From: Tetraselmis striata
Lineage: Eukaryota; Chlorophyta; Chlorodendrophyceae; Chlorodendrales; Chlorodendraceae
DNA length: 64,000 nucleotides
Reading direction: 5' to 3'
NCBI GenBank assembly: GCA_006384855.1
Contig: VCJN01000118.1
Coordinates: 1-64,000, forward strand
Part shown: positions 27,320 to 64,000 of the stretch, piece by piece
How the letters are laid out: each line of letters starts with the position of its first letter
Position numbering within the stretch: position 1 is the stretch's first letter
Notes under the pieces: generated by a model
Told to the model about the DNA's origin: nothing
The model's input: only the letters and a program-made list of their open reading frames with translations
Databases searched by the model: none
Position numbers and translations under genes: made by a program

Positions 27320-28715
27320 AATGATGTACCGCCAACACTCCCACCTCTGGCGGTTTCTTTGACCCACAGCTTGAGTCCGTACTTGGCCGAGGCAGCTTCA
27401 ACGCAACTTCTTCCGCCCGCCGGTATGACTACTTCCTCATCAATGTGTAGGGGTCGACCCATCCATCGGCCAGCTACGCCGCGGCGGTGCGCGCGGCGTG
27501 GGCCGCCTCCATGCGACTACGGCTGGTCACCTCAGCGATGTGGATGTGATGTGATGTGATGGATGTGCGATGTGATGGACCGAGCGGGAAGCGGGGGCTG
27601 CGTTGGGCTCGCAAAAGGAGCTGACGGCATTTCTTGACCAGGCCAACAACTCTCGGCTTCATAATGAGGTGTGCGCTCTCCCTGCCACATGTGGGGAACG
27701 GATGGTGTTCAAGCATCAACTCGACCCGGCGCCGGGCATTTGGATGGTGGCCATCCTTACGAGTGGACGGCCATGACGCTGCATGAGCTGCGAGAGGTCG
27801 CTGCCATGTACTTCTCTCTGCCTAGCCCTAGCCCATGGTGATCGGGAGCTTACTAGTCAAGATCATTTTGCCCTCGACAGAGCACAACCCCGTCACGGTC
27901 GACCTCATGAACCACATGACCTCATGCACATGGAGACGCTCACTGGCGTGTACAGCACGACGCTATCGCAAACGCCTTCCGCGATCACTGTATTAACGAC
28001 TTGGGTATCGTTGTGCGCCGAGACTACAGACTTAGTTAGCCATACTAACACCACAGCGCGGCCGCCCCACGTTAGTTACTTGGCAATACAGTACCAAGTT
28101 ATTTCCGTGATCATCATCTGTACCAAGTTGTATCCATGATCATCACGTTGACCCATCCATGCTAGCCCGGGGGCAAGACGTCGCTCGGCACTTAGATTAT
28201 TTTGTGGCGTGAGTCTGGTCCCCTGAAAACAAGGGTTTTGAGGCCAACATTGCTTAACACCGCAACCATGAAACTTTTGGCTAACCTAACATTTATTTTG
28301 AATCAATGTTAGAGGTGGATGACTTGTTCCAGCAAGCAGTGCCTCTCGGCAACACCGCACCCATGGATAAACTCAAGGACCTAGTGTCGGACGTGGAGCT
28401 CTCCCTCCCGGCGTTCAATGTCGTGATGGGGAGCTATGATCCCCGGAGCTTGAAGTTCACGTTGCTGCTGGATTTCAAGACTATGCGGTACGGGGTCAGG
28501 TACATTGCGGTGCCTTGGGCCACGGCTGTGGATTGGTTTGAGCGCTCCATGCTGGGCGACTTACAACGTGGGTTGGCAGTGCGGGATTCGGCGTGGCACA
28601 ACACGGAGCCGGGAGAGAAGGGCCCTCTTCGAGACCTCATGGATATCAATGCCGTCGGAGTACATGAGCATGGTCTTCGGCATAGTGGGTGAGTAGGTAA
28701 GGGGTGCGCCGTTTG
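27320..28715 (+). pseudogene. Decayed transposon ORF, repeat family X, copy 1
   Basis: This segment is clearly similar to 62890-64000. Conserved translated stretches are FFDPQLESVLGRGSFNATS and QKELTAFLDQANN in the first part, and WHNTEPGEKGPLRDLM in the second. The first part is broken by stops, shifts and a short GATGT tandem expansion near 27535-27570; the second part still reads for ~128 residues (28306-28692). I do not recognise the protein. Both copies neighbour a tyrosine-recombinase element, so X may be an ORF of a larger related element. A foreign repeat (28022-28311) interrupts it. Confidence 0.6.
28022..28311. repeat. Repeat family D, copy 1, inserted in X copy 1
   Basis: About 285 bases absent from the equivalent point of X copy 2 (near 63580) and present again at 49688-49962. 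It contains a hairpin-forming TACTTGGYAATAYAGTACCAAG. The only duplicated flank I can see is 3 bases (GAG or AGA), which suggests a small DNA transposon; the class is unproven. Confidence 0.6.
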
Positions 28716-29029
28716 TGCGTGGTGTCGCATGATCGGCCGCGGATCGAGGTGCCCTCATCGTGGGGCACTCGGTGCGCCACCAGGGCTCACCAAGAGGCCT
28801 TACTCGCAAGATATTTCCTCGAGATCCTCAGCTTGGTGGCGGCTCGATAGCGTGCTAACTGCCTCATCGGACTGCGCAGATTCGTCCGCCATCCCGTTGC
28901 CGAAGCTGCACGGCACGTCCGTAGATCAATCTCGCACACACGTGCACGCGTGGCCAGAACTTTGAACCGTGCGCGCATCCCTCATCCATCCCGCCTCGCT
29001 CGTGCTTTAGGGTTTTATGGTTTTTTTTA
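28716..29029. other. Spacer between X copy 1 and recombinase element
   Basis: About 310 bases without a recognisable product. It may be a continuation of repeat X, but the other X copy runs off the window so this cannot be compared. Confidence 0.35.
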
Positions 29030-30630
29030 CGTAATTGACGAGCCCGAAGCTGTCGCCTCATGGCGGGTTGCTTCACTTCGATCCCGTCTATTGGAAGCGT
29101 CCAGCTAAGGCGAGTTGGGACATCGGGCTCTCGGCCTACTCCTCAGCTCCCTCACCGCTCACACGCTCAAGAACTACGCCGACAAACACTTTCAGTTCGC
29201 GGAGTTCTGCCACGACTCCTAGATCATCAACCCGCAGGAGGTATCTACTGCCACGGTCATCCGGTATGTTGCTTGGATTGGTGAACGGGGCTACATTGGG
29301 GCTAAGTCGCTACTACAATCCCACCTGTCAACAATCAACACGTTCTTCGAACTGCACAACATCGACCCCGTCGCTAAGGGCAGCTTGCAGCACCCCACCG
29401 TTGCGCGTCGTGGTCTGCTACGGAGGCAACACCGCATGGAGGCTGCCCCTTTGCGAGTCCCGCTGGTTGTAGATGTCGCTTACAACTGCGTTGAGCGGGC
29501 CGATTTGATTGTGTCTGCCCCCCCCCCCCCCCCCCCCCCCCCTCACCCTCCCGAGTACAAGTACGACTTCCGAGCCCTGATGGCCTCAATTGTCAAATTC
29601 ATATATATTCTTTGCCAGGGGACTTACTGGCGTGTTCTGCCGAGTGCGGGACGTGCATGTCGACTCCTGAAACATCACCATGCAGGTGTACGGAGAGAAG
29701 GGGCGCGCCGGGCGGCGCGGTCCAGACGACCTACGCGTGCTACTCCTTCCATTGACGGAGCACCCCCGCGTCGTCGCGCGTCTCCTGCATCACCGCATCG
29801 ACACCGCAAAGTCTGCCCCCACGGTCCCTGCTGCCATGGCCGCGACTAACTTATGGGCGGTAAACCCGAGCGAGCAGTCCAAATCTTGGACTGCCGCTAC
29901 ATGTCGGATTGGCTTTTGCGGCCGTTCGTCTCGTCCGTGCTGCCCCTCCCACCGGCACTTCATGGCTCTCGCACAGCCTTCGCAAGGGTGCAGCGCCTGA
30001 TGCTAACGCCATTGGAGTTCCGCTGTCCCACATTCGCCACCAAGGCGGCTGGGCCACGAAATTCGACATCGTTCTTGACTACGTCGACCCTAACGTCTTC
30101 CTTTCACCTGGCGCGTGGTTTTTTCTTCGGTCACATCGCGCCTATGCTTCGCCACTTCCAAGACGGAGACTTCAACACCACTTCAACAAGACTCCGCAGC
30201 GGTGGCCTTCCCGGTGCCCCCTTCGTGACATGGCGCTACCCCATTCTTCGTCAATATATCGCTCTCTCCATTCGCTCATCACTTGCAAAACCAGACTCAA
30301 CTTGAAAATATCTAAACTAGTTTTGGGGGTTTCCTCATTTTCTGACCGGTTTCTGGTAACCGTCACTGCTAAGTGTTGGTACGGGTTACTAGTTTACCCG
30401 TCGTTGAGCCCTTTTGGGTGCAGCACGAGACCATGAGTAGACATGAAAGCAGCCGTAACAGTTGAGCTTGCCATCTTCCTGTTTCGTTTTGTTACACGCA
30501 GAGCCCCCCTTGACTCCGTTTTTCCTCCACAGCTTAACTAAAGCTTCTTGCCAATTTCGGCTCTTGTCCGTGTAATAAAACAGCATGCCCGACCTTTTTC
30601 GCAAGACCAGACCCATCTTTGAAATCTCTG
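29030..30630 (+). mobile_element. Degenerate tyrosine-recombinase (PAT/DIRS-like) element, copy 1
   Basis: This matches the right-hand half of the intact element at 59459-62676, from the TYVIDEP stretch of the recombinase to the terminal repeats. The recombinase frame is destroyed by stops (for example TAG at 29219), frameshifts and a ~24-nt C run at 29518-29542. That run replaces the short TCCTTACCCAGAG of the intact copy. The B1-A2-B2 end is still recognisable: B1-like at ~30285-30306, A2-like at ~30308-30500, B2-like at ~30600-30627. The left half, with A1 and the Gag-like ORF, is missing. Confidence 0.8.
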
Positions 30631-45452: not shown

Positions 45453-46184
45453 CTAGCCCCCAAGAACATGGCTGGCCAGCCAATCCTCTCCGCATGGCTT
45501 GAGTAGATCCGCCGCCACGGCGCTGAAAGCAGCCTCCCCGTAGTACGACGCCAGTAGCTCTCTGACCTTGGCATCCAAGTCCAGGTTATTTTGAACGAAG
45601 ACGCAGGCACCCATGTTATCCAAGTTCACTATATTTCTTAAGTGCATTGTGATAAGACCAGCAAGAGAGAACACGAGCTCGCACTCAATCTGTGAGCCCG
45701 GCACACATAAAGCAATCCTAGCTAGTTCAGAGATGAGGGGGAAGGAAGGAGTCTTCGTCGTCGTCGATGAGAAATCGTCGGCTTGCGTCCCAAGTGGTGT
45801 CGGTGTCACTCTTGCTGAGCTGTTGGCGGCAGTGTTGGCCGCAGCGGTGGCGGTGCTGTCCTCCGCCATCGCCTTATCCACCATCGCCGTTGCGCCATGC
45901 TTCGCGGCAGACTCGTCTCCCTCCGTATAATTGACGAAGAGTGACGAGAGGAGGATGACATGTACTGGTGCATGGGCGGGTGAGCGTGAAGTGAGGATGG
46001 GTTTGGCTGGTGTTTGTCGTCTACTAGTATGTGCCCCGATGCGGCGACGTGTGATGGTACGAGCGAGTACGGTGCTATCCGCAGCGCTACGACCCCCGGA
46101 ATTGTCGCCATATGGCTTATTGTCATTGGCGGTCGCCATCCAAACGTAATCCAGTGAGATTTGGGGCACTTTGGGTAACTGCAC
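45453..46184 (-). pseudogene. hAT transposase C-terminal fragment
   Basis: The frame holds a recognisable hAT dimerisation segment: FPLISELARIALCVPGSQIE followed by ECELVFSLAGLITMHLRNIV and NNLDLDAKVRELLASYYG. The catalytic RNase-H-like core is absent. The N-terminal half of the frame has no family signal, so the transposase is only a remnant. A C run at 45423-45438 lies just past the coding end. Confidence 0.7.
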
Positions 46185-46262
46185 TGCAGCCCCTTATAGG
46201 GAAGTACTGCATGTTGCAGTGTAATACCTTGCAATGCAATCGATACTGCAGCCCGGCCATGG

Positions 46263-48274
46263 TTATGGCTAGGAAGGCTCAAACAGGGGGGGGGGGGGGG
46301 GGGGAGTAAGAGGAGGAGTCTGCATGGCGGAAACGAGAACGGGAGGAACGAGCTAGAAGATGGCAAGCGCGCTGCCGGTAGATGTCCTAAGTAGCTCCCT
46401 GATGGCCGGGAGCGCATGGCTCGCGGGCGATGGAGCAGCCCGTATTGGAACACGATGCATGGAACCGGCATCTGCTCAGCCGGCTGAAACTACCAACCGA
46501 CTGTTCGGGTCGTATAAGGACAGTCTAGTTGTTGGGTAACCCCATAAACTAGTTTAGAACATTTCAAACATGCAATCGAGACTGGTTTTGCTAGTTACAC
46601 GCGTTGTTCACGATTGCCAGCGTAAGCGGTCGGCAAGCCTGCCGGACATACGAAGGCGGAAGATGTATGGAATTGCAGGAGAATCTCGCGCCGAGAGGGT
46701 AGGAACCTCGATCGAAGCGCGGGCGCAGAACACACGCGGACGGGAAGTGTTGACGGCGCAAACGCCGGCGCGGCGACATAGGCCGGGCGTGTCGCGAAAT
46801 CAAGACGCCGTCTCCCTACGGCGCCATGCAACATTTGCCGCGCGCCGTGGCGGCGTGCGACACGAATAACCGGAACTGTAGGCCAATAGGAACGGCCGCC
46901 AGGTTGACGATGAGTGACCAACACAGCGGCATGGGTACCCGTAGGACGAGTGCGAGCGGAGCGCGCGGGCGCGCAAGCGCGCCTCGTACAACGAGCACGT
47001 GAATAAGTACGGTGCGTTGTACGCGACACAACGGTAAATCCGCACAGCATATACCGATAATGTACATACATTACGAGGGGAGGACATGAAACCCCGCACG
47101 ATGACGGCGGCGGTGTACGACCGCGATGCGATCACCAGCGGCGGTCGCCCCGCCTTGCACGAGGGGGGGGGGGAGGACACTTGAAACGCACCGCGCATCG
47201 GGGCGCGGGCACTACGTGGGATCCAGTGTGGTCGTGTTCTACCGGTTCTTATGCGTGCCAGGGTTGGTTGCCGGCAACTCACGTCGCAGAAGACCCGCCG
47301 ACTCGGCAAATTGTCAGCGCGGGTCTCGCATTGCGGAGTGCGGTGAGGCGGCCGTTGCTGCTGCAGCAGCAACGACGGCTACTGCTGACCGTCCACCTCA
47401 CAATTTGCAGACCTACGGTGACGCCAAAAAATGCACATGTCGCGTTAAATTGCGGAGCTGCCCCCCCCCCCCCCCCCCCCCCCCCCGGGCGGGCAGCTCA
47501 TGTTGTCAGGCATGAGACATCGGGAACGTGTAGTAGTTGGCTGGCGTAGAGACTGTGGTAGCCTACGCGGGCCCGTGGCGATATCAATGTTGTCGGGGCG
47601 AGAGTACCGACGAGGCGGACGCCGCTGCTGCACCAACGACGGCCGCCGAGGGTCCAAACCCGGGGTTGGACATAGGAGTTACGGTCACCACGATGAGACG
47701 TCCAGCACGCGCCGCGTGGTAGAGCTGCCCCCCGGCGGCTAGCTACGTGTTGTCGTGGTTCTTATTGCGACGGCGACGTTGCAGTAGGACCGAGCGAGCC
47801 GCGCGGACGCTTCCGCCCACAACAAACACTACAGCAAACGTTGCGCGGCACGGTTGGGGCGGGGGCAATGAGCCCTCTCAAAACACATGAGCGGCACCAT
47901 CCCGCCCGTAACGGACAAATTAATATGCGGGTAGTTTTGGAAAACCACAACGTGTAGCGACCGTTAATGCCACAACGCCATCATGCTTGGAGGACACACG
48001 GACTGGATTGAAGTGTCTTGCATGACGGCAAGCGGCCAGCGGCCATCATGAGTGACAACACGGAGTGACGTCCTCCTCCGTCCGCGCCGGTTTGTTGCGG
48101 GAAGCGTAGTCGCGCCGTCGTTGACAACCGTGAGGAGCAACGGCCATGGTATTCAGCGCGTCCGCCTCACCTAATACCTCAAGAGTTGAGTACTGCGAGA
48201 GGGTTCTCTACTGCGGGAGCCCATGAAAGCCTGTACTGCGACTCAGCTTCGGGTGTTGAGGTTTAGCGCCCCCC

Positions 48275-51303: not shown

Positions 51304-54300
51304 ATGCCGCATACGTCGTGCCGCCGTTTGCACCGAGCCTGTCGCAGGTCGCTAGCCGACGCGCTCCCCCTGCTGGGCGCAATGGCAGTTCTTCTATGCT
51401 CGCCCGTGGGAGCCCAGCGCAAGTCGCGCGAAGACTGGTTCAGGCCGCCTGCCATCCCGCTGTTCACGAGCGACCCGTACATGCAGACGTGGCTCTTCGG
51501 CGACTCGCCCACAAATGACACCGTACGGCACTGGGACGGCCGGCCCAAGCAGATGGCGGGCTTGGCGAGGGTCGACGGCACAACATACCGCTTCCTGGGC
51601 GGCTGCGACGGCCACGCTCGCGGCAGCTGCCCGCCGCCGCTGCGCCTGTTGTCGCCGCCGCGCGTGACGCCTAGCTTGACGTCCTTCCGGTTCGCTGGCC
51701 CTGGCGTGGAGCTGACGGTGGAGTTTCTGGCCACCCCCTTTGAGGTATTGACCCATCGCGACAAACGGCGCAGATAAGGATGTTGTGTATGGCCCCACTT
51801 ACCTGCCTCTGCTTTTTATCGTGAACCGGTGCTAGGTGGTAAGGATTTAGAGTTAATAGTAAAATCGTTATTATCAGGTGCCTACTATGTTTCCCCAATA
51901 AAAAATGGAATCTCGGGATGCTAAACAGAGCTGCTGAGAGCAGATTGCCCTTCTGCGTCCCCCACCTTCACTCACCCGATCAGGACAACCTCACGCTCCT
52001 CGCTCGGCCCGTGCACTACCTCCACCACCGCGTGGTAGCCACCGACGGGCACCCGCACCGCGTGGAGCTGTACGTGGACATGACCGCGCAGCACTGCGTG
52101 AACTCCACGGAGGAGGCGGTGGAGTGGGCCGCCTGGAGCGACCCGCGTGGCCTGCGGGTGGCCAGGATCGGCACGGCCGCGCAGCGAGTGCTGGGCCTCG
52201 CTGGCGACAAGACCAACATCAACTGGGGCTGGCTCTACCTGGCTGCGGAGGACCATCACGCCGGTGACGGCAGCGGGTCAGGGGAGGAAGGAGCTCAGGG
52301 GCGCGAGTTGCAGGTGCGCAGTATATACACAAATGAATGTATGTATGAATATGTGAACGTACGCCGTAACCAACGCTCTGGGTTCCCTGTGTGTTGTTGT
52401 TTTGGACCCTCGCGAGAAAGGGTAAAGGAACGTAGACCCGGAAAGATACCAGCATTGACTTCGAATGCCTTCCGGAATCTACGACCCAAATGGTGCCAAA
52501 CAGTTCATCGTTTTGGTTTTACACAATTATAAAAGTTCACTGCATTCTATTCAAATGGTGAAGTTATAATTCATAAACGCTTGAACACTATGTGACCGTG
52601 ACGTTCATGGGAAGCAGGCTCCCCACATGCCTCACTACCGGAGGTATAGGCAACGGCAATTGACCCCCTCCTCCCGCCCCTTACTCTTTGCGATGTCCGT
52701 GCCCTGGGCTAGGTGGGTGCGGGCAGCGCCGCCTCGGCGCGCCGGCATTTCGCGGCAACGGGCGAGCTGCTCCAGGAGGAAGCGGGCCGCCCGTCGGCGA
52801 TGCCACGTCCGGCGTCGCAAGACCCGCCTGCGGTGGCCGCTGTGCGCAGGCTGGCGGTGCCTGCGAGCAGCGCGCGGGCGGCGTGCCATCTGGTGCTGGT
52901 GGGGCTACGACGACGTCGCCTCCGTGCTGTTCTTCGGGACGCGCCTCGTGGGCTACTGGACGCGCGCCTACCCCGGCGGCATCACCCACGCGCTGGCGGA
53001 GGCCGCGGGCGAGTTCCCCGCGATGGCCGCCCGCTCGGAGCGCCACGCGGCATCGCTCCGGCGCCGCATGGTGGCGGCGGGCGGCGCGGGCTACGCGGCC
53101 GGTGGGCGCGCTGGCGGCGCGGCAGACGCTGGCGGCCACCAAGCTGGTGCGGAGCCCCTCCGGGCGCCGGCCCTGGCTGTTCCTCAAGGAAATCTCCACC
53201 AACGGCATGCTGCAGACCACCGACGTCGTGTTCCCCGCCTCGCCGATGCTGCTGGCGCTGCGGCCGGGCCTGCTGCGCATGCTCCTGGAGCCCACGCTCG
53301 CGTTCGCCGGGAACCGCACTCGCGCCGTCTTCACCGACCCGTTCTCGCCGCATCAGCTGGGCTTCTACCCCACAGCCAATGCCACGACGCGATCGCAGGA
53401 GCCGATGCCGATGGAGAACACCGGCAACATGTTCCTCATGCTGCTCGCGCTCGTGCAGCGTGCGCCCGCGAGCCGCCTGCGCTGGCTGTTCCCGCGCTAC
53501 TGGCCGCTGCTGAGCGCCTGGGCGGAGTACCTGGACGCGTCGCTGCCCTACCCCTCGCAGCAGCTGTGCACCGACGACTTCACCGGCCCGCTCGCCAACA
53601 ACACCAACCTCGCCGCCAAAGGCATCGTCGCTCTCGAGGCCTTCGCGCAGCTGTGCGTTGCCGCTGGGAGGCCGAAAGACGAGTGCGCCGGCCACTCCGC
53701 CGCCGCGGCCAGGCACGCCGACACGTGGCGCCGCCTGGCGTTCGAGGCGGAGCCGGCGCCGCACCTCAAGATCGCCTATCAGGTGCCGGACTCCTACAGC
53801 CTCAAGTACAACTTGCTGTGGCAGCGCCTGCTGCGCTTGCGCGGCCCCTTTGCACTGAGCGAGCTCCTCGCGATGGAGCTGCCCTACTATGCGGCGCGGA
53901 GCAACCGCTACGGCACACCCCTGGACATGCGGCACGACTACGTCAAGCTGGACTGGGCCGCGTGGGCGGCGGCAATGGCGCCCGGCCGCGCCAGCTTCGC
54001 AGCGGCCTTTGCGCCGGTCGTGCGCATGCTGAACGAGACGCCCAGCCGAGTGCCGATGACCGATCTTTACGATACCATCACGGGGCGTGCGGTGTACGAG
54101 GGCAAGATGTCTTTCGTCGCTCGTCCGGTCGTGGGCGGAGTCTTTGCCCGGCTGCTGCTGGCGGAATCATCGCCGCCGCCTCTGGCGCTCACGGAAGCGC
54201 CATCGCCTGCCAGAACTCGGCGCGGCGTTCCGGCCAGCATGCGACGCCCATCTGGCCTGTCTTGGACACGGGCGGCATCACGTACCCGGCAGTACGCGAG

Positions 54301-56438: not shown

Positions 56439-57590
56439 CTATAAAAAGGGGATGATGAGCTGGGCGTCATGCAGCGGCGCAGCTGCAGACAGCATGCTGT
56501 GCAGGCTGAAGTAGGCCCTGTGGGCATCGGTCAGCCTCTCCTGCACGCGCCGGCTATGCCGCTCCTGCCGCTCCAGCTCCAGCTCCGCCAGCTCCGCCGC
56601 GTGGCGCTGCCGCTGCTCCGCCCACTCCGCCGGGCTCTCTGCGCGGGCCAGCGCCTCGAGGCACGGCATCGCGCGCGCAGCGCTGAGCCGGCTCGCGCGC
56701 CGGCAGTGCGCGCAGGAGATGGTGGCGCCGGCGGGCGTCAGGTCGTTCGCGAGGCGGGAGGCCAGGCGCTCCTCCACGTCGGTCGGCCGCTTGTGCTCCA
56801 GGCTGGCGCGCACGCAGTTGCCGCAAAAGACATGCCCGCACACCAGCCCCACGGGCCGGAACAGCGTGCCCAGGCAGATGGCGCACGTGACCTCGGGCGC
56901 GTCCCCGCTGCGGCTGCTGCAGCTTTGGCCCGGGAAGCCGCGCTCGTGGAGGAGCACCAGCGCGCGCAGCTCATCCAGCAGCGGGGAGGTGAGAAAAGTG
57001 CCCAGGCGCGCGTCGTTCCAGCATGGCTCCACGAGGAGGCGCGCGCGCCGGGCGCCGCCGGTGGCCGCTCGGTACGCCGCCTCGACGGCGCGGACGCCGT
57101 CCTTGCAGGCCAGGGCGAATGCCAGGCAGGCGCACGCCGCCGCGAGGACGGCCTCGGCAGATTGCCCGATGACATGCCGCAGCGGCCGCGGCCCCTTGCT
57201 GCGCGCGCGGATTGAGGTGCTCAGCGCGCTCAGATTCCGCCGCCATTTTGGCTTCTCCATAATGCTGGCCGCTTGCAGAACATCCTCAGCAGACTGTACA
57301 AATGCCTGGCTCGCGTGCGCTGCATCCTGCCGAGATAAGAAAGGAAAGAAGGAGGGGGAGAGGGGGGGGGGGGGGGGGGGTCAATTCCAGGCTCAGCGTG
57401 GGACGAGGGCAGAGGGCACGCAGCATGAGAATTTGGGCAAGGAGAAAAGCGTCTGCCTTCTGTACTTCCAAAACCAAACAACTATGGGATGAAGACAGGA
57501 AACCGCCACGTTTCAAACATTTCATGTCATGTGACGGGTTTCTTATCTCACAACCATGCTTTCTTGGGTTCACTATGCATTTTTGATGAG

Positions 57591-57621
<31 letters not shown>

Positions 57622-58411
57622 TCCCCTCGGGGTTGCAACATGATACGTATGTGTGTTGGACCCGCGAGCCCCACAACCATCAACTGGTACGGAATGCAAG
57701 GATTGTACCTCGGAGTTACGATAAGTCTACTGCGCACCCACCCATGACACCCAACCTTATCTTCTGGGGATTTGAATGGGCGTGCTTGCGCCGGCGGAGG
57801 AGGGACAACAGAATGCCAGGGAGGTGATTGAAGGCAGAGTTTGGGGGTAGGGCGGCCACACCTTGTAGAATGCCCTTGCGAGGTCCAAGTGCAGACGCTG
57901 CAGATCCTGGCGCGGTGTGGCGTCAGGGTCGGCCGGGACCTCGTCATCGGCCTCTGCGCGCATCCGTCTGGGCACCGCAGCATGCACCCCGGCATGTCAG
58001 CACATGATGGAGCCTCTCGACACCTTGCACTTGCAGAGTGACGAGCTCTGCAGCTGAAGCGGGCAAATGAACTCACTCTAGAGTGGCATGGTAGCGCCCC
58101 GCATGGATGGCGCAGTGCTCCAGCTCCTGTCACGCGTGCCCGCAAAAATGGGGAATGCATTCAAAACGATGAACATATATATTTGCCCGAACCGTCCACA
58201 CATATATCCAAAAAATAAGACGTATCCCGCGCCCCACCTGCATCGCCTTCCATTGCACGCCAGGGTCTTTCAGTGGCGCGGCACTGGGGGCCTTCCTGTT
58301 GGTAGCGACGCGTCCCGGGTGCACTGAGGACTTTCTATCGCCATTCACGACGGTCGCCTCTCGGGGGCAGCCTCCGGGCACAGGGCCCGAGATGCCCTTG
58401 GGAAACCGCAT
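56439..58411 (-). CDS. RING-type E3 ubiquitin ligase, BAH1/NLA-like
   Basis: Four exons join in consistent phase: 58238-58411, 58077-58126, 57862-57967, 56439-57326; about 405 residues. The RING is clear in the last exon: CAICLGTLFRPVGLVCGHVF then CGNC, a long loop, and CAHCRR. The tail after the RING (LEALARAESPAEWAEQRQRH ... AYFSLHSML) has the charged coiled-coil shape and ending seen in plant BAH1/NLA proteins. Residues ~60-290 are helix-rich (RRNLSALSTSIRARSK, CKDGVRAVEAAYRAATGG, RLGTFLTSPLLDELRALVLL) and line up loosely with the middle of BAH1/NLA, whose N-terminus is an SPX domain sensing phosphate status. No classical SPX start (MKFGK) is seen, so SPX is a guess. Such ligases degrade phosphate or nitrate transporters in plants. 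The last intron carries a sense-C run near its acceptor. Confidence 0.72.
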
Positions 58412-59458
58412 CGCACGGGCGCGTCAGAGCCTGAGCACGACCAAACAACAAGCCGCATCGTTGCCGCGCTTCAGCGACTGTGCTTCAACATGGGTGTCGC
58501 CCCCCCCCCCCCCCCCCCCCCCCCCCGCGCGCCAAAGCAGAATGGGGAGGCCTCCGCGAGACTTAGACTCGACCGAACACAGCCTGCCTGCCGGCACCCA
58601 GCTGCGGCACCACGTTTCCCCACCCGCCTCGTGCCAGTACCGGCGATACTCTTTCTAAATTAAAATGTCCTGCGCGATAATCTCGAACCTCAACGGCGAG
58701 CCGACTACGAGTCGTACAGTGCAAGATCGCAGCCCCGAACAGACAAACACTCCGTACAATAACGGCTGCAAGGCACCTCTATCACGCGCAACGTGATAGC
58801 TGAGGACCGGTTTTCCAGAGCAGCATGCGTTGGTATTGCAGGTGATCCGGCGGCGGTGGTGAGCCCACTGTTTGCGGTAAGGTGCGGCAGGTGGGTGATG
58901 GTCAGTAGTGCCAGGCGACTCACTGGCCGGCCCGGGAGGGGGGCGGGGGAGGGGGGGGGGGAGCGGGGGGGGGCGGGGGGGGGGGGGGGGGGGGGGCGGG
59001 CGGGGGGGCGCGACGTCGCGCGTCTTGCTCAGCCACTCAGGACCGCCCCGTTCAGGACCCGCCAGCGCACCTGTCAGAATCGCCAGAGGTGAAGCTACAT
59101 ACATATACGTCCACAGAGTCCGGCCACAGAGTCTACAGAGTCCGGCCACAAGCAGCATACCGCTGCGGTTCGCAGCTTCGAGGCGGGGTGTCCTACTTGG
59201 TGTGCCGGTATTCCGCGCTGAAGATCGAAATGTCGGTTGGTGTCAGTCTTTGGCGTCGGTCCTACCGGTACCGTACCGGCCAGGGTGATGACGGTGCTTA
59301 TTGACGCTTTTTTTATCTGTCCGTGGCGAGGATTATTACGCGCTGGGGGGCGGTACGGTAGCGAATAGGAACCAGCGCTAATCCTACTACAGTACCGTAC
59401 ACGTCGTACTGGTGCCGCCGTTCAGTACGACGGCCGCTTTTACGCGGCTTGATCTGAC
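58412..59458. other. Intergenic, G-rich
   Basis: C run at 58500-58526. A long G-rich stretch lies at 58937-59010 with A/C interruptions, and a local duplication of CAGAGTCCGGCCACA at ~59114-59150. No supported gene. It ends at the left repeat of the YR element. Confidence 0.5.
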
Positions 59459-59640
59459 CTAAACTAGTTTATGGGGTTTCCACCCTTGACCTAACCGCTT
59501 TTTAGCTACAAGTGCTGCTCAGTGGTACGGGAACTAGTAACTGTTGTTGCGCCCTTGTTGGGTGCAGCACGAGTAGACATAAAAGCAGCCAGAACAGCTG
59601 AGCCTGCCATCTTCCAGTTTTCGCTGCGTTCCACGCAGCG
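59459..59640 (+). repeat. Split direct repeat A1
   Basis: 182 bp from CTAAACTAGTTTATGGGG to CCACGCAGCG, identical to A2 at 62374-62555. Left end of the element; it probably carries the promoter for the element's RNA. Confidence 0.9.
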
Positions 59641-59753
59641 ATGTAAAAACTGTCTCGTAACCCGTTGCGAGCAAGGTCACCCCAGGTTGTTCAAGACCAC
59701 ACCCGGCTCGCCACCCGAGTGTGAAATTCTCGTCCGTACGTCCGTGCGTTACC

Positions 59754-60629
59754 ATGTCAGATGGAGAAGAACCCGTCGCTGAGCCGACGTTGCAGTCGCT
59801 GAACGCAGATATGAGAGCCCAGTCTTCATTACTGCGAGAGCTGGCTACAGCTGTGGCACAATTGACGGCTCGTGATCGCGTTGTTGATGGAGAAGGGGCA
59901 CATGGCTCCGGCTCAGGGCAGCGCTTCGCGGGACAGCCGACAGGCAGCGGGGGAGCCGCAGAGCGCCCCGACTTGCTAGAGCTAGCCCAGAGCGGCCGTG
60001 TCGGAGCAAAATCCGTGAGTGCCGAGGATGATTACCTCGCGGTGCCAGAGCTACTGCAGAGAGCAGAGTCTGGTTACGAGGCCGTTCGACCGGTCAGCCG
60101 AGTGCCTGGACTTTTCCCTTTGAGCACCGACCTAACGAACGAGTACCTCAAGCAGGATGACCGGCGTCTGCCGGCCCAGGAGGAGTACTTGTGGATGTCG
60201 TGTTTCGGGGCCCACATGGCCGCCCTTTTCGTGGCGCTCGACGAGCTGCTACCTTACGTCCCCGCCACTAACCAGGACTTCACCCCCTACCTCGCGAGAG
60301 CTCGGAATCACGCCGAGGCCATCGACAAGGCGTTTCGTTTTCGTCTAGCCTTCCTGCGGAAACTGAATGAGATCAAGCGGGTGCACGGTGACCAAGGTGT
60401 TCTGGACGTGCTGCGAGCTCAGCATTTTCAGCCTGCTTCGGAGCATTTGGGTTCTGCAATTTTTGGGGACCTCATGAGGGACTACGAGCGTCGTGTCTTC
60501 GCGGCGACCGTTGCCAGCATCGCCAAGGCGACCGCTACTTCTCGAGTAGCGGCTGCAGCTGCAGGTCGCGGGCGTGGGCGAGGACGTGGTGGCGGACGTG
60601 GACGTGGCCGCGAAGGTGAGCACGAGTGA
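59754..60629 (+). CDS. Gag-like ORF of the YR element
   Basis: 291 residues from the ATG at 59754 (MSDGEEPVAEPT). It starts with a short helical, coiled-coil-like stretch (SLNADMRAQSSLLRELATAV). A helical core follows (EEYLWMSCFGAHMAALFVAL, FRLAFLRKLNEIKRVHGDQG, IFGDLMRDYERRVFAA). It ends in an Arg/Gly-rich tail (RGRGRGRGGGRGRGR), which suits nucleic-acid binding. It has no CCHC knuckle. The role as Gag is inferred from position upstream of the recombinase and from this build; no enzyme motif is present. The frame is intact. Confidence 0.7.
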   Translation: MSDGEEPVAEPTLQSLNADMRAQSSLLRELATAVAQLTARDRVVDGEGAHGSGSGQRFAGQPTGSGGAAERPDLLELAQSGRVGAKSVSAEDDYLAVPELLQRAESGYEAVRPVSRVPGLFPLSTDLTNEYLKQDDRRLPAQEEYLWMSCFGAHMAALFVALDELLPYVPATNQDFTPYLARARNHAEAIDKAFRFRLAFLRKLNEIKRVHGDQGVLDVLRAQHFQPASEHLGSAIFGDLMRDYERRVFAATVASIAKATATSRVAAAAAGRGRGRGRGGGRGRGREGEHE

Positions 60630-60775
60630 CGGTGTGGGGCGCCGCTCGTCGGAGCTGCAGGAGCCTTGCGAGGCCACCTTTCGGTGACCGCCGCAAGACG
60701 CACCCTTGCAGCTCAACGGCGGGATGAGCGCCCTGTGTCAGGACCTGGCCCCCCCACCTTACAAATTTCATTTAG

Positions 60776-62290
60776 ACCTTCCTCGGTACGGCGCTTCTTA
60801 CAGCTACAGCCGAGTGCGGCTCAACCATCCGCACGCCTGCACATGGCGGCTCAACCATCCGCCTTTCTTACAACCCCATCTCTGCGTTCGTCGGTTGTTA
60901 CACTACGTGTTACAACCGGTTCCAACGACCAAGTTTCGCGCGTGTACGTTACGCACGTGACAGGCGCTATGAGCGCGAAGGGCGCGCGGGGCGGCCCTCT
61001 TACCTAAACCTAGCCCCGCAAACCCGTACTGGAGCTACTGCAAACCCGTCCAGCAACTACCGGCCAACCGCCGGGAACCTAACCGTTGCTGCCGAGTACT
61101 TTGCGAACAGTAGCCGTGCCGGTGGAACTCTGTCAGTAAAACGACGCACTTACGTAATTGACGAGCCCGCAGCTATCGCTCCATGGGCTGCGTCACTGCG
61201 ATCTCGACTGCAGGACGCGTTCGGCTCAGACGAGCTAGGCCAGCGGACGCTCGACCTGCTCTCCAGCTCCCTCAGCGCTCAGACCCTCAAGAGCTACGCC
61301 GGCAGGTTGTCTCAGTTCGCTGAGTTCTGCCACGACTCCGAGAACATCAGCCCGCTGGAAGCGACTACTGCTACTGTTGTTCGGTACGTTGCCTGGATCG
61401 GGGAGCGAGGGCACATCGCAGCTAAATCGCTGCAGCCCTACCTGTCTGCCATCAACACCTTCTTTGAGCTGCACAACCTCGTCCCGATCGCCAAGGACAG
61501 CCTACACCTCACTTCAGCAAGACGTGGGTTAATGTTGCGTCAGCGCCGACTGGACGCTGCCCCTTTGCGTGTCCCTCTGCCTGCAGATGTAGCTTACCGC
61601 TTCGTCTCAAAGGCCGAGCTAATTGTGTCTGCTCCTTACCCAGAGTCCCACCTCGACTACCGAGCCCTCTTGGCCTCGGTTGTCAACTTCCTGTTCTTTG
61701 CCAGGGGCCTTACTGGCGTCTCCTGTCGAGTGCAAGATGTGCATGTCGACACCTACAACATCACCTTGCAGATCTACCGCGAGAAGGGTCGCGCTGGCCG
61801 GCGGGGACCCGGCGACCTGCGCGTACTTCTCCTTCCAGTGTCCGAGCACCCTCGAGTGGCACGTCTCTTGCACTACTTCATCGACAACGTCCAGTCTGCC
61901 CCCCTGGTTACTGTTGGCTTGGCTGCCTCCAACTTCTGGGCTGTCAATGTGGCTGAGCAGTCCAAACCTTGGACTGCGGCTACGATGTCAGACTGGTTGT
62001 CTACAGCAGTCAACCTAGTCAACGCTGCCCCCCCTGCTGGCACTTCCTGGACTTCACACAGTCTACGCAAGGGCGCAGCCTCTGCAGCAAACGCCATCGG
62101 AGCGCCACTGTCCCACATCCGCTACCAAGGCGGTTGGGCCACTAACTCTGATGTCGTTCTGGACTACATCGACCCCAACGTTCTTCCTTCTCCTGGCGCG
62201 TGGTTCTTCTTTGGACACATCGCCCCCCTCCGCCACTTCCAAGTCCAACAGGACTCCGCAGCGGTGGCCTTCCCAGTGCCTCCTTCATGA
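60776..62290 (+). CDS. Tyrosine recombinase of the YR element
   Basis: The frame is open from 60776 (stop TAG at 60773) to 62290, up to 504 codons, but I see no ATG in about the first 250 codons. Conservation with the decayed copy begins at TYVIDEP (~61146), so sequence before the first Met is really coding. This suggests the ORF once continued from an upstream RT ORF or is reached by splicing. Residues 180-270 form the core-binding SAM-like region (QTLKSYAGRLSQFAEFC). The catalytic set is complete: Arg in LTGVSCRVQDV, Lys in YREKGRAG, HxxR in SHSLRKGAAS (~62053-62080), Trp in YQGGW, and Tyr in VVLDYIDP (~62160). It should cut and rejoin the circular DNA intermediate at insertion. The frame is intact and well kept. 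Confidence 0.85.
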   Translation, partial: TFLGTALLTATAECGSTIRTPAHGGSTIRLSYNPISAFVGCYTTCYNRFQRPSFARVRYARDRRYEREGRAGRPSYLNLAPQTRTGATANPSSNYRPTAGNLTVAAEYFANSSRAGGTLSVKRRTYVIDEPAAIAPWAASLRSRLQDAFGSDELGQRTLDLLSSSLSAQTLKSYAGRLSQFAEFCHDSENISPLEATTATVVRYVAWIGERGHIAAKSLQPYLSAINTFFELHNLVPIAKDSLHLTSARRGLMLRQRRLDAAPLRVPLPADVAYRFVSKAELIVSAPYPESHLDYRALLASVVNFLFFARGLTGVSCRVQDVHVDTYNITLQIYREKGRAGRRGPGDLRVLLLPVSEHPRVARLLHYFIDNVQSAPLVTVGLAASNFWAVNVAEQSKPWTAATMSDWLSTAVNLVNAAPPAGTSWTSHSLRKGAASAANAIGAPLSHIRYQGGWATNSDVVLDYIDPNVLPSPGAWFFFGHIAPLRHFQVQQDSAAVAFPVPPS

Positions 62291-62343
62291 CTTGGCGCTA
62301 CCCCTTCTCCGTCAATCCACCGCTCTCTACGTTCGCTCAAGAC

Positions 62344-62371
62344 TGGCAAAACCAGACTCAACTTTGAAATG
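62344..62371 (+). repeat. Split direct repeat B1
   Basis: 28 bp, TGGCAAAACCAGACTCAACT and following to GAAATG, identical to B2 at 62649-62676. It lies immediately before A2. Confidence 0.9.
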
Positions 62372-62373
62372 AT

Positions 62374-62555
62374 CTAAACTAGTTTATGGGGTTTCCACCC
62401 TTGACCTAACCGCTTTTTAGCTACAAGTGCTGCTCAGTGGTACGGGAACTAGTAACTGTTGTTGCGCCCTTGTTGGGTGCAGCACGAGTAGACATAAAAG
62501 CAGCCAGAACAGCTGAGCCTGCCATCTTCCAGTTTTCGCTGCGTTCCACGCAGCG
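62374..62555 (+). repeat. Split direct repeat A2
   Basis: 182 bp identical to A1. Followed by ~93 bases of unique sequence before B2. A diverged A2 is also visible in the decayed copy at ~30308-30500. Confidence 0.9.
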
Positions 62556-62648
62556 CCCCCCCTGACTCCGTTTTCCCTCCACGCTTTTCACTTTACCTTC
62601 CTGCCAATTTTGGCTCTTGACCGTGTAAAACAGCCTGCGCGACCTTTT

Positions 62649-62676
62649 TGGCAAAACCAGACTCAACTTTGAAATG
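62649..62676 (+). repeat. Split direct repeat B2 (right end)
   Basis: 28 bp identical to B1; marks the right end of the element. A diverged counterpart lies at ~30600-30627. Confidence 0.88.
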
Positions 62677-62889: not shown

Positions 62890-64000
62890 CTCCGGCACCA
62901 ACACCCCCACCCCTGGTTTCTTTGACCCACAGCTTGATTGAGTCCGTACTTGGCCGAGGCAGCTTCAACGCAACTTCTTCCGCCCGCCGGTATGATCCCT
63001 TCCTCAACGATGTGCGTGGGTCGGGCAGCTACGCCGCGGCGGTCATGCGCAAGGCGTGGGGCCGCCTCCAAGCGGCTATTGCTGGCCACCTCAGCAACGC
63101 AGATGCGCGCGTGATGGAGCGGGAAGCGGAGGCTGCGTCGAGCTCGCAAAAGGAGCTGACGGCATTTCTAGACCAGGCCAACAACTATGACTCGGCTTCA
63201 AAATGAGGTGCGTGTGCGCTCTCCCTGTCACATGTGGGGATTGGATATTGTTAAACCAGCTCGATGCGGCGTCGGGCATGTAGATAGTGTCCATCCCCAC
63301 CGCGCGGACGGTCATGACTCCGCATGAATTGCGGAAGGTCGTGGCCGGGTACTTCTTTCTGCCTAGCCCGTGCTTGGCCCCGGTGGTCGGGACTCGGGAG
63401 CCAGATCATTCTGCCCTGGACATAGCACAACTCCGTCAATGTTGACCTAGACGGCGACGCGGTCTTGAACCTCCCGGCACCTGGAGACGCCCACTGGCGT
63501 GTACAACGCGACGCTATCGCAGACGCCTTCCGCGATCACTGTATGTGGTCACGACCTGGGTATCGCTGTACACCGGGAGGTAGATGACTCCTTCCAGCAG
63601 GCAGTGCCTCTCGGCAACACCGTACCCAGGGATGAACTCAAGGACCTAGTGCCAGACGCAGAGCTCTCCCTCCCGGCGTTCAACGTCGTGACCGGGGGCT
63701 ATGATCCCCGAAGCTTGAAACCCACATTGCTGGAGTTTAAGATTATGCGGTACAGGGTCAAGTACACTGCAGTGCCCCGGGCCACGGCTGTGGATCGGGT
63801 TGAGCGCTCCCTGTTGCGCGACATACAACGGGGATTGGCAGCGGGAGATGCGGCGTGGCACAACACGGAGCCCGGACAGAAGGGCCCTCTTCGACACATC
63901 CCGGATACGTCGGAGTACACGGGCATGGTCTTCGGCACAGTGGGTGAGGTGAGCAAGGGGGTGCGCCGCACAGTGCCCAGTGTCGCATGCTTGGCTGCGG
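62890..64000 (+). pseudogene. Decayed transposon ORF, repeat family X, copy 2 (runs off the window)
   Basis: Partner of 27320-28715. The first part keeps a frame of ~90 codons (LIESVLGRGSFNATSSARRY, SYAAAVMRKAWGRLQAAIAG, QKELTAFLDQANN). The later part (63577 on) reads QQAVPLGNTVPRDELKDLVP, ELSLPAFNVV and AAWHNTEPGQKGPLRH with interruptions. It lacks the repeat D insertion. Product unknown; continues past 64000. Confidence 0.6.

Follow-up and report, generated by a model that had tools for sequence, protein, structure and literature searches.

Does the element at 59455–62676 of this window, a 64,000-nucleotide stretch of the Tetraselmis striata genome, belong to a lineage that spreads without encoding a reverse transcriptase (RT), or is it one damaged copy of an ordinary tyrosine recombinase (YR) retrotransposon? 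A first-pass annotation had described it as a recent split-repeat element with Gag and recombinase. From the locus and the 224-Mb assembly of the window's source, which was searched for further copies, we conclude that it is probably a semi-autonomous PAT-like YR retroelement, which carries its own Gag-like protein and recombinase and would receive RT in trans.

Anatomy of the element and its family

The element and its repeats are arranged as follows.

59455–62676, forward strand: whole RT-less split-repeat YR element, ends fixed via other insertions
59459–59640, forward strand: A1, 182 bp, same sequence as A2
62344–62371, forward strand: B1, 28 bp, identical to B2
62363–62385, forward strand: internal B1-A2 junction TTTGAAATGATCTAAACTAGTTT, presumed recombination core
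62374–62555, forward strand: A2, 182 bp, identical to A1
62624–62628, forward strand: TGTAA, 25 nt upstream of B2, presumed poly(A) signal
62649–62676, forward strand: B2, 28 bp, identical to B1, beyond the presumed transcript

The identity of both repeat pairs (182 bp and 28 bp) and their order, A1-ORF1-YR-B1-A2-B2, agreed with the first-pass annotation, and the order supports the PAT-like plan that it had proposed: split direct repeats A1-B1-A2-B2, as in PAT-like YR retrotransposons, were found in this copy and in other copies. Comparison of insertions gave TGAT/CTAAAC as the left end and TTTGAAA(T) as the right end (the slash marks the boundary); since other copies mostly begin at TGAT/CTAAAC, we placed the left end here at about 59455. 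Visual inspection of the sequence flanking 16 insertions, including one whose right end was not located, showed no target-site duplication. The TGTAA motif at 62624–62628, which we take to be a poly(A) signal, precedes B2 in all 19 of the 21 copies that have this stretch, by 25 nt in 18 and by 24 nt in one.

The element is a member of a large young family that is very common in this genome. An exact B-A junction pattern was found 794 times, 397 on each strand, and the reversed junction, used as a control, 0 times in the genome. The insertion itself is recent, as had been supposed: A1 equals A2, B1 equals B2, and the nearest sister among 20 compared differs by 0.78%. We read 21 other copies, 20 of which came from the top of the YR match list and are thus biased towards intact ones. 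Four complete repeats were present in 19 of these; in L031, an insertion interrupts A2 and the retrieved sequence ends before B2; in L033, A1 lacks its first 109 bp. At least one ORF is broken in 9/21 copies read, or 10/21 if a 542-aa ORF2 counts as broken, and unpartnered A starts and broken copies are common. Tandem arrays with a spacing of 2,916–2,918 bp also occur, for example with four ORF1s at C2249. Contig C1059, taken up as a diverged YR relative, proved to hold another short-family copy. No relative was found in viral contigs.

Two further features of the window are related to this family.

29027–30625, forward strand: old degenerate relative, YR with stops and frameshifts followed by B1-A2-B2, 5' half absent
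46535–46595, reverse strand: solitary B-A junction from a related family (TT-spacer), with 14 such sites in the genome

The degenerate relative has 74% DNA identity and a dN/dS of 0.20 over 369 codons. The TT-spacer junction was rejected as an RT partner, as no RT or short-type YR lies beside it within the window.

Absence of reverse transcriptase

The stretch from ORF1 to the recombinase domain, at about 490 bp, is too short for an RT. No RT or RNase H match was detected in the scanned frames of this copy, no Dam methyltransferase match was detected in them, and ORF1 and YR are joined alike, with nothing inserted between them, in all of the 21 other copies, which come from 21 other contigs. 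The assembly collapse that the first-pass annotation had named as a refutation is not borne out by these joins. The RT-less layout, common to every copy read, is a family trait rather than a deletion in one copy; on this comparison of sequences, the RT/RH/MT block is gone from the whole lineage.

The spacing of A repeats was consistent with this. Of 1,678 A starts, the first 100 were examined; they include 31 same-strand neighbours closer than 8 kb, of which 27 lie 2,876–2,949 bp apart, one lies at 2,743 bp and three are closer, with none at 3–8 kb. An RT-bearing copy would be expected in that range, the spacing being 4.6 kb in an RT-bearing relative.

This relative (C2476:186866–191776; Pfam RVT_1, 1.1e-11) has an identical 178-bp A pair and an identical 24-bp B pair in the same order. 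Two long elements were scanned for Dam, and both gave a match, one above the cut-off and the other below it. The long and short elements share the order A, Gag-position ORF, YR, B1, A2, B2, a YR 39% identical over 361 aa, and a TGTAA (24 nt upstream of B2 in the relative). Both also have GCAAA where B starts or close by, and AAATG where B meets A. By contrast, the relative has the RT/RH/MT that the short family lacks and measures 4.9 kb against about 3.2 kb, its Gag similarity is marginal, and its A and B repeats share just end motifs with the short family, being otherwise unlike by eye. Because only these end motifs are shared, RT may come from a source other than the long family. An RT-bearing relative of the same anatomy exists in the same genome and could lend RT, but the one that the first-pass annotation had suggested looking for, with these repeats, was not found in the parts checked. 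Among the matches listed, none of 149 long-family RT loci had any of 234 short-type YR places at 12 kb or less on its own strand; the comparison used 149 of 150 listed RT matches (C389:79033 was left out) and omitted the query itself, 1 of 85 YR rows. One RT-locus query was a frame overlapping RT, whose identities are not RT identities; the same loci were matched. Another RT element, L027, was rejected as a partner, its YR having no significant similarity and its repeats being different.

Coding capacity and selection

The coding region comprises the following features.

59754–60629, forward strand: ORF1, 291 aa, Gag-like (ATG at 59754, TGA at 60627–60629), apparently under purifying selection in the family
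60624–60648, forward strand: block around the ORF1 stop (TGA CGG TGT GG..), candidate recoding signal
60630–61120, forward strand: 5' part of ORF2, from the ORF1 stop to the recombinase domain; amino-acid constraint weak or absent over the first 71 codons, judged on few variants
60776–62290, forward strand: YR frame as it stands in this copy, 504 aa between stops, with the recombinase region at 61121–62287
60922–60923, forward strand: private 1-nt deletion, carried by this one of 21 aligned copies, that throws ORF2 out of frame

ORF1 is likely Gag, as judged from its position, its size, its RG-rich C-terminus and a weak, collinear resemblance to the ORF at the Gag position in the RT-bearing relative (BLASTP E 0.095). 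The same comparison gave no match with phmmer and an HH score of 24.5 (probability 3.9%), as against 11.6–13.8 for six shuffles and 20.9 for the reversed sequence. ORF1 had no Pfam match, its single cysteine leaves no zinc knuckle, and its AlphaFold model was unusable (pLDDT 37.6). It is present at 97–100% identity in at least 134 scored copies (best matches only).

The YR frame matched Pfam Phage_int_SAM_1 (6.8e-8) and, below its curated cut-off, Phage_integrase (1.2e-3), with a weak match to the C-terminal part of Cre (E 0.0017–0.0095). The residues R..HxxR..W..Y, which we take as the catalytic motif by which to judge the frame, were all found by inspection, as the earlier description had it; together, these features identify a tyrosine recombinase, as PAT-like YR retrotransposons have. 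The claim that both ORFs are intact has to be withdrawn, since ORF2 is broken here by the 1-nt deletion near 60922, which the other 20 aligned copies do not have. The first ATG of the resulting YR frame comes no earlier than codon 253, and this copy, its ORF2 frame since lost, has probably ceased to supply recombinase. One 553-aa ORF2 frame was found in 63 of 85 scored copies (best matches only); in the copies read, it opens immediately 3' of the TGA that ends ORF1.

Variants were analyzed in 21 aligned copies, with those present in two or more counted as shared. Shared variants numbered 40 synonymous and 15 nonsynonymous in ORF1 (pN/pS 0.13), 43 and 14 in YR (0.11), and 4 and 8 in the first 71 codons after the stop (0.83); for variants seen once, pN/pS was 0.35, 0.22 and 0.62, respectively. 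These ratios indicate purifying selection on ORF1 and YR within the RT-less lineage.

How YR is expressed downstream of ORF1 has several candidate answers. The ORF1 stop is TGA in 21/21 aligned copies, 13 nt around the Gag stop are identical between the short family and the RT-bearing relative, and the stop block of the latter has 115 exact matches in the genome. Stop-codon read-through is favoured by this conserved block, but not by the 71 weakly constrained codons that follow the stop. YR might also be expressed by splicing from a GTGAGC that precedes the ORF1 stop codon, or by re-initiation at the codon-72 ATG, which is missing in one copy (L040). RNA folding 3' of the stop was not decisive in the short family (z −1.95 for 115 nt, −0.56 for 73 nt) or the long family (−1.78 and −2.01). 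In the long relative, where RT lies one frame on from Gag, this block may act in frameshifting. L048–L055, considered as eight diverged long copies, were close to L025 around the Gag stop and hence offer no test of long-term conservation of the block.

Proposed cycle and alternative explanations

We propose a cycle with an RNA intermediate, packaging, RT supply in trans and a circle, each step being inferred. Transcription would start inside A1 and end at the TGTAA just upstream of B2, so that the RNA would carry neither the left-hand portion of A nor any of B2, with the internal B1-A2 junction kept whole. The element's own ORF1 product would package this RNA, and RT would come in trans, most likely from Gag-RT/RH/MT-YR elements of the same genome. 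The missing parts of A1 and B2 would be rebuilt from A2 and B1 to give a circle with a B-A junction, at which the element's own tyrosine recombinase would insert it without target-site duplication.

The repeats bear traces that such a cycle might leave. A1 and A2 differ by a mean of 1.53 positions within elements versus 3.42 between elements (0/20,000 permutations), and a private variant is mirrored in A1 and A2 in 5/19 elements, this copy included, as if one A were copied from the other in each cycle; gene conversion could be another source.

A DNA transposon of the Crypton type, in which YR would excise or copy a DNA circle and ORF1 would be a DNA-binding accessory protein, with no reverse transcription, would also explain the uncoded RT, the many copies with an open YR frame, and exact ends with no visible target duplication; the 2,916–2,918-bp tandem arrays are compatible with circles integrating at a B-A junction, though unequal crossing over would produce them as well. 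We consider it unlikely, as the split direct repeats and the TGTAA before B2 suit an RNA cycle and would serve no obvious purpose in a DNA cycle, private variants are mirrored in A1 and A2, and the most similar element found, in YR as in anatomy, is a retroelement that bears RT. Quite a long shot is a related proposal that the family, its RT lost, has quit retrotransposition and multiplies through circular DNA that its own recombinase makes, with a Gag-recombinase fusion produced via the UGA-CGG block, a step from a DIRS-type retrotransposon towards a Crypton-type DNA element. In that case, the 2.9-kb tandem arrays, whose units share one A, would have formed by circles integrating at the B-A junction.

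It is improbable that the family is a passive, decaying non-autonomous derivative, its ORFs relics and all its proteins, including recombinase and Gag, drawn from RT-bearing elements. The frameshifted ORF2 of this copy and the proportion of copies read with a broken ORF (9/21, or 10 counting the 542-aa ORF2) point that way, whereas shared-variant pN/pS of 0.11–0.13 in ORF1 and YR, the 553-aa frame in 63/85 copies and the at least 134 ORF1 copies at 97–100% identity (best matches only) do not. That an ordinary RT-bearing PAT-like element suffered a deletion in this one copy, or was collapsed in the assembly, has a negligible chance of being correct, although a relative of that plan is present in the genome; this reading is refuted for the family by the same ORF1-YR join in 21/21 copies elsewhere, with no 3–8 kb A-to-A spacing among the first 100 A starts and both ORFs apparently under selection in the RT-less lineage.

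Comparison with known systems

In the open-access PMC literature that we searched, we found no description of a YR element with Gag and recombinase but without RT. Hundreds of copies whose recombinase and Gag-like protein appear to be under selection, and from which RT has been dropped, suggest that these modules can separate again and still spread. RT-bearing relatives of the same anatomy in one genome open the way to tests of which parts act in cis.

Cryptons have a YR without RT, as here, but are not known to have split direct repeats or a Gag, and the long split repeats of this element set it apart from them. TR-GAG and other plant Gag-only LTR retrotransposons keep Gag, lack RT and rely on RT in trans; they differ in their LTR order and DDE integrase and in keeping no recombinase. 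With the PAT-like and TOC-Kangaroo YR retrotransposons of the DIRS order, the semi-autonomous element that we propose shares the A1-B1-A2-B2 repeats, the lack of a visible target-site duplication and a Gag-position ORF without zinc finger (one cysteine here), and in Toc3 the YR is described as likewise lying downstream in the same orientation (PMC4157794). It differs in that RT, RNase H and methyltransferase are absent from every copy read. PMC6681497 states that YR retrotransposons are thought to have arisen by a recombinase joining an RT-bearing retroelement. It also describes SIRE of trypanosomes, an RT-less short derivative of VIPER that keeps YR retroelement ends and consists of the 185 bp at the start of VIPER and the 220 bp at its end, with about 30 bp more (PMC6681497). 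That composition leaves no room for ORFs like the ORF1 and YR found here.

Organization of the RT-less element

The first-pass annotation had described the window element as a tyrosine recombinase (YR) element with split repeats, two intact ORFs and no reverse transcriptase (RT). Checking of the coordinates confirmed two identical repeat pairs in the order A1-ORF1-YR-B1-A2-B2.

Features of the window element
~59455-62676: whole element, 3.2 kb
59459-59640: A1, 182 bp, no differences from A2
59754-60629: ORF1, 291 aa, RG-rich end
62344-62371: B1, 28 bp, no differences from B2
62374-62555: A2, 182 bp, no differences from A1
62649-62676: B2, 28 bp, no differences from B1

ORF1 of this copy had no Pfam match, and the second frame was identified as a tyrosine recombinase by Phage_int_SAM_1 (6.8e-8), with a Phage_integrase match (1.2e-3) under the Pfam cut-off. 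The absence of RT was also verified: the gap between ORF1 and YR (60630 to ~61120) is too short for an RT, and the frames scanned gave no RT match. The description of both ORFs as intact did not hold, as ORF2 is broken by a 1-nt deletion near 60922, found in none of the 20 other aligned copies, because of which the YR frame begins at 60776 and has its first ATG not before codon 253. Among the 85 scored copies (best YR matches listed), 63 have ORF2 as a 553-aa frame, which in the copies read lies directly 3' of the ORF1 TGA and in the same frame.

Very long C and G runs (~20-30 bases) lie at 57590-59011, beside the element. A second repeat, X (76-83% identical), is present both 3' of the element (62898-64000) and 5' of an old YR copy at 29027 (27332-28743); it gave no useful Pfam match in the frames scanned and may represent a further mobile element or a gene family. 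A fragment of a hAT transposase dimerisation domain (45453-46190; Pfam 6.2e-7) adjoins an isolated B-A junction.

A large family without RT

We searched the whole 224-Mb assembly containing the window (contig C90), using YR and ORF1 protein searches that score the best candidates only and thus give lower bounds. Among the matches listed, YR detected at least 85 copies (82 at 97-100% identity, three at 90-94%) and ORF1 at least 134, every one at 97-100%. The A start occurred 1,678 times and the exact B-A junction 794 times (reversed control, 0). Twenty-one further copies were fetched: 20 chosen among the highest-ranking YR matches plus L046, a supposed diverged relative that proved to belong to the same short family. 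ORF1 was joined to YR without RT in all 21, and all four repeats were present in 19. In L031, A2 is split by an insertion of 1.3 kb whose ends are inverted (GTGCCTCGGGCAAATATGTTGTA), probably a DNA transposon, and the fetched stretch does not reach B2; in L033, which adjoins another copy, A1 is missing its first 109 bp; and L026 has partly lost the stretch before B2. Five B-A junction loci chosen irrespective of coding (L041-L045) all carried A2 and B2, with the match extending through the whole 1.5-kb upstream flank to its edge in L042, L043 and L044, falling into two pieces in L041 and ending inside YR in L045.

Tandem copies occur on contigs C2249 (ORF1 at 52789, 55706, 58622 and 61538), C2200 and C1388; given their 2,916-2,918-bp spacing, adjoining units probably share one A. 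Such arrays suggest either that circles integrated at the B-A junction or that crossing over was unequal.

RT-bearing copies of the family, which the first-pass annotation had named as grounds for refuting its reading, were found neither among the sampled A-to-A spacings nor at the listed RT loci. Within the first 100 of the 1,678 A starts, 35 had a same-strand A neighbour within 12 kb: 27 spacings were 2,876-2,949 bp, one was 2,743, the rest were 968, 2,012, 2,155 and four above 8.8 kb, and none fell between 3 and 8 kb. Of the 149 RT loci listed for the related long family (RT-bearing YR elements of the same genome), not one had any of the 234 listed short-type YR places within 12 kb on the same strand; both listings are subsets of larger sets.

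Maintenance of both proteins and possible recoding

In a set of 21 copies, a sample biased toward intact YR, ORF1 is a single open frame in 17 (among them L029 and L033, in which the usual ATG is missing) and ORF2 in 15 (including L040, 542 aa); the two are open together in 12 copies (11 if L040 is excluded). One ORF1 copy (C1981:4671-5543) lies within an 842-aa open frame, so this copy seems to have lost the ORF1 stop and to carry an ORF1-ORF2 fusion.

When variants present in at least two of 21 copies were counted, pN/pS was 0.13 for ORF1 (40 synonymous, 15 nonsynonymous), 0.11 for YR (43 and 14), 0.27 for the 103 codons before YR (6 and 4) and, from small counts, 0.83 for the initial 71 codons beyond the ORF1 stop (4 and 8). 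The corresponding one-copy values were 0.35, 0.22, 0.55 and 0.62. YR of the old copy at 29027 had a dN/dS of 0.20 over 369 codons. Together, the low ORF1 and YR ratios and the old-copy value indicate that both proteins have been maintained within the RT-less lineage.

Thirteen bases around the Gag stop (AGTGACGGTGTGG) are identical between the short and long families. The ORF1 stop is TGA in each of the 21 aligned short copies, with CGG next in 20 and TGG in the remaining one; TGA CGG is found in all nine long copies read, which closely resemble one another. Exact matches to a longer block number 61 in its short-family form and 115 in its long-family form. Beyond it, the short-family YR is in frame, whereas the long-family RT lies one frame on. 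That two such distant families have kept this stop block suggests a recoding signal. Weak constraint on the 71 codons 3' of the stop speaks against a plain read-through product, and expression of YR through splicing or re-initiation is possible.

Signs of a replication cycle

Across 19 elements with both repeats, A1 and A2 differed at a mean of 1.53 positions within and 3.42 between elements, a pairing reached in 0 of 20,000 permutations, and five elements, including the window copy, carried an element-private variant mirrored in both. Such mirroring is what copying gives if one repeat templates the other each cycle; gene conversion is an alternative source. TGTAA, which we take to be the algal poly(A) signal, precedes B2 by 25 nt in 18 and 24 nt in one of the 19 copies with this stretch, a position that would place B2 outside the RNA and require its rebuilding from B1. 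Among 16 insertions, TGAT precedes CTAAAC at the left end in 15 (L028 differs) and the right end is TTTGAAA in 15 (that of L034 was not found), with no duplication of flanking bases seen by eye.

Comparison with RT-bearing and known elements

An RT-bearing element of the long family, on contig C2476, adjoins one short-family copy.

First features of the long relative
C2476 186866-187043: A1
C2476 187061-188125: Gag-position ORF

RT/RNase H (RH), a Dam-like part, YR, B1, A2 and B2 follow, with RVT_1 at 1.1e-11 and the RNase H and Dam matches under cut-offs. Its repeats (A, 178 bp; B, 24 bp) are identical within each pair. The two families share AAATG at the B-A joint, TGTAA lies 24 nt before B2 in the long relative, and its B starts with GCAAA, a motif found near the start of B in the short family. 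YR identity is 39% over 361 aa; the Gag-position proteins align only weakly. A separate RT-bearing YR element, L027 (C1455 ~138700-141800), combines RT-RH-Dam with a YR-like frame. Its own direct repeats, of 68 and 57 bp, are unrelated to A and B.

No combination of Gag and recombinase in an RT-less YR element was described in the parts seen of the open-access PMC literature searched, among them PMC4157794, PMC8226300, PMC6681497, PMC3537659, PMC3266345 and PMC12477816; subscription reviews or Repbase may include such an element. In its mode of action, the short element most resembles a PAT-like retroelement that retains its Gag-like protein and recombinase after losing RT, RH and methyltransferase, and we infer that RT is supplied in trans. 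Because RT and methyltransferase are features of the PAT-like group and the short element has neither, we file it as a derived variant of that group rather than a full member.
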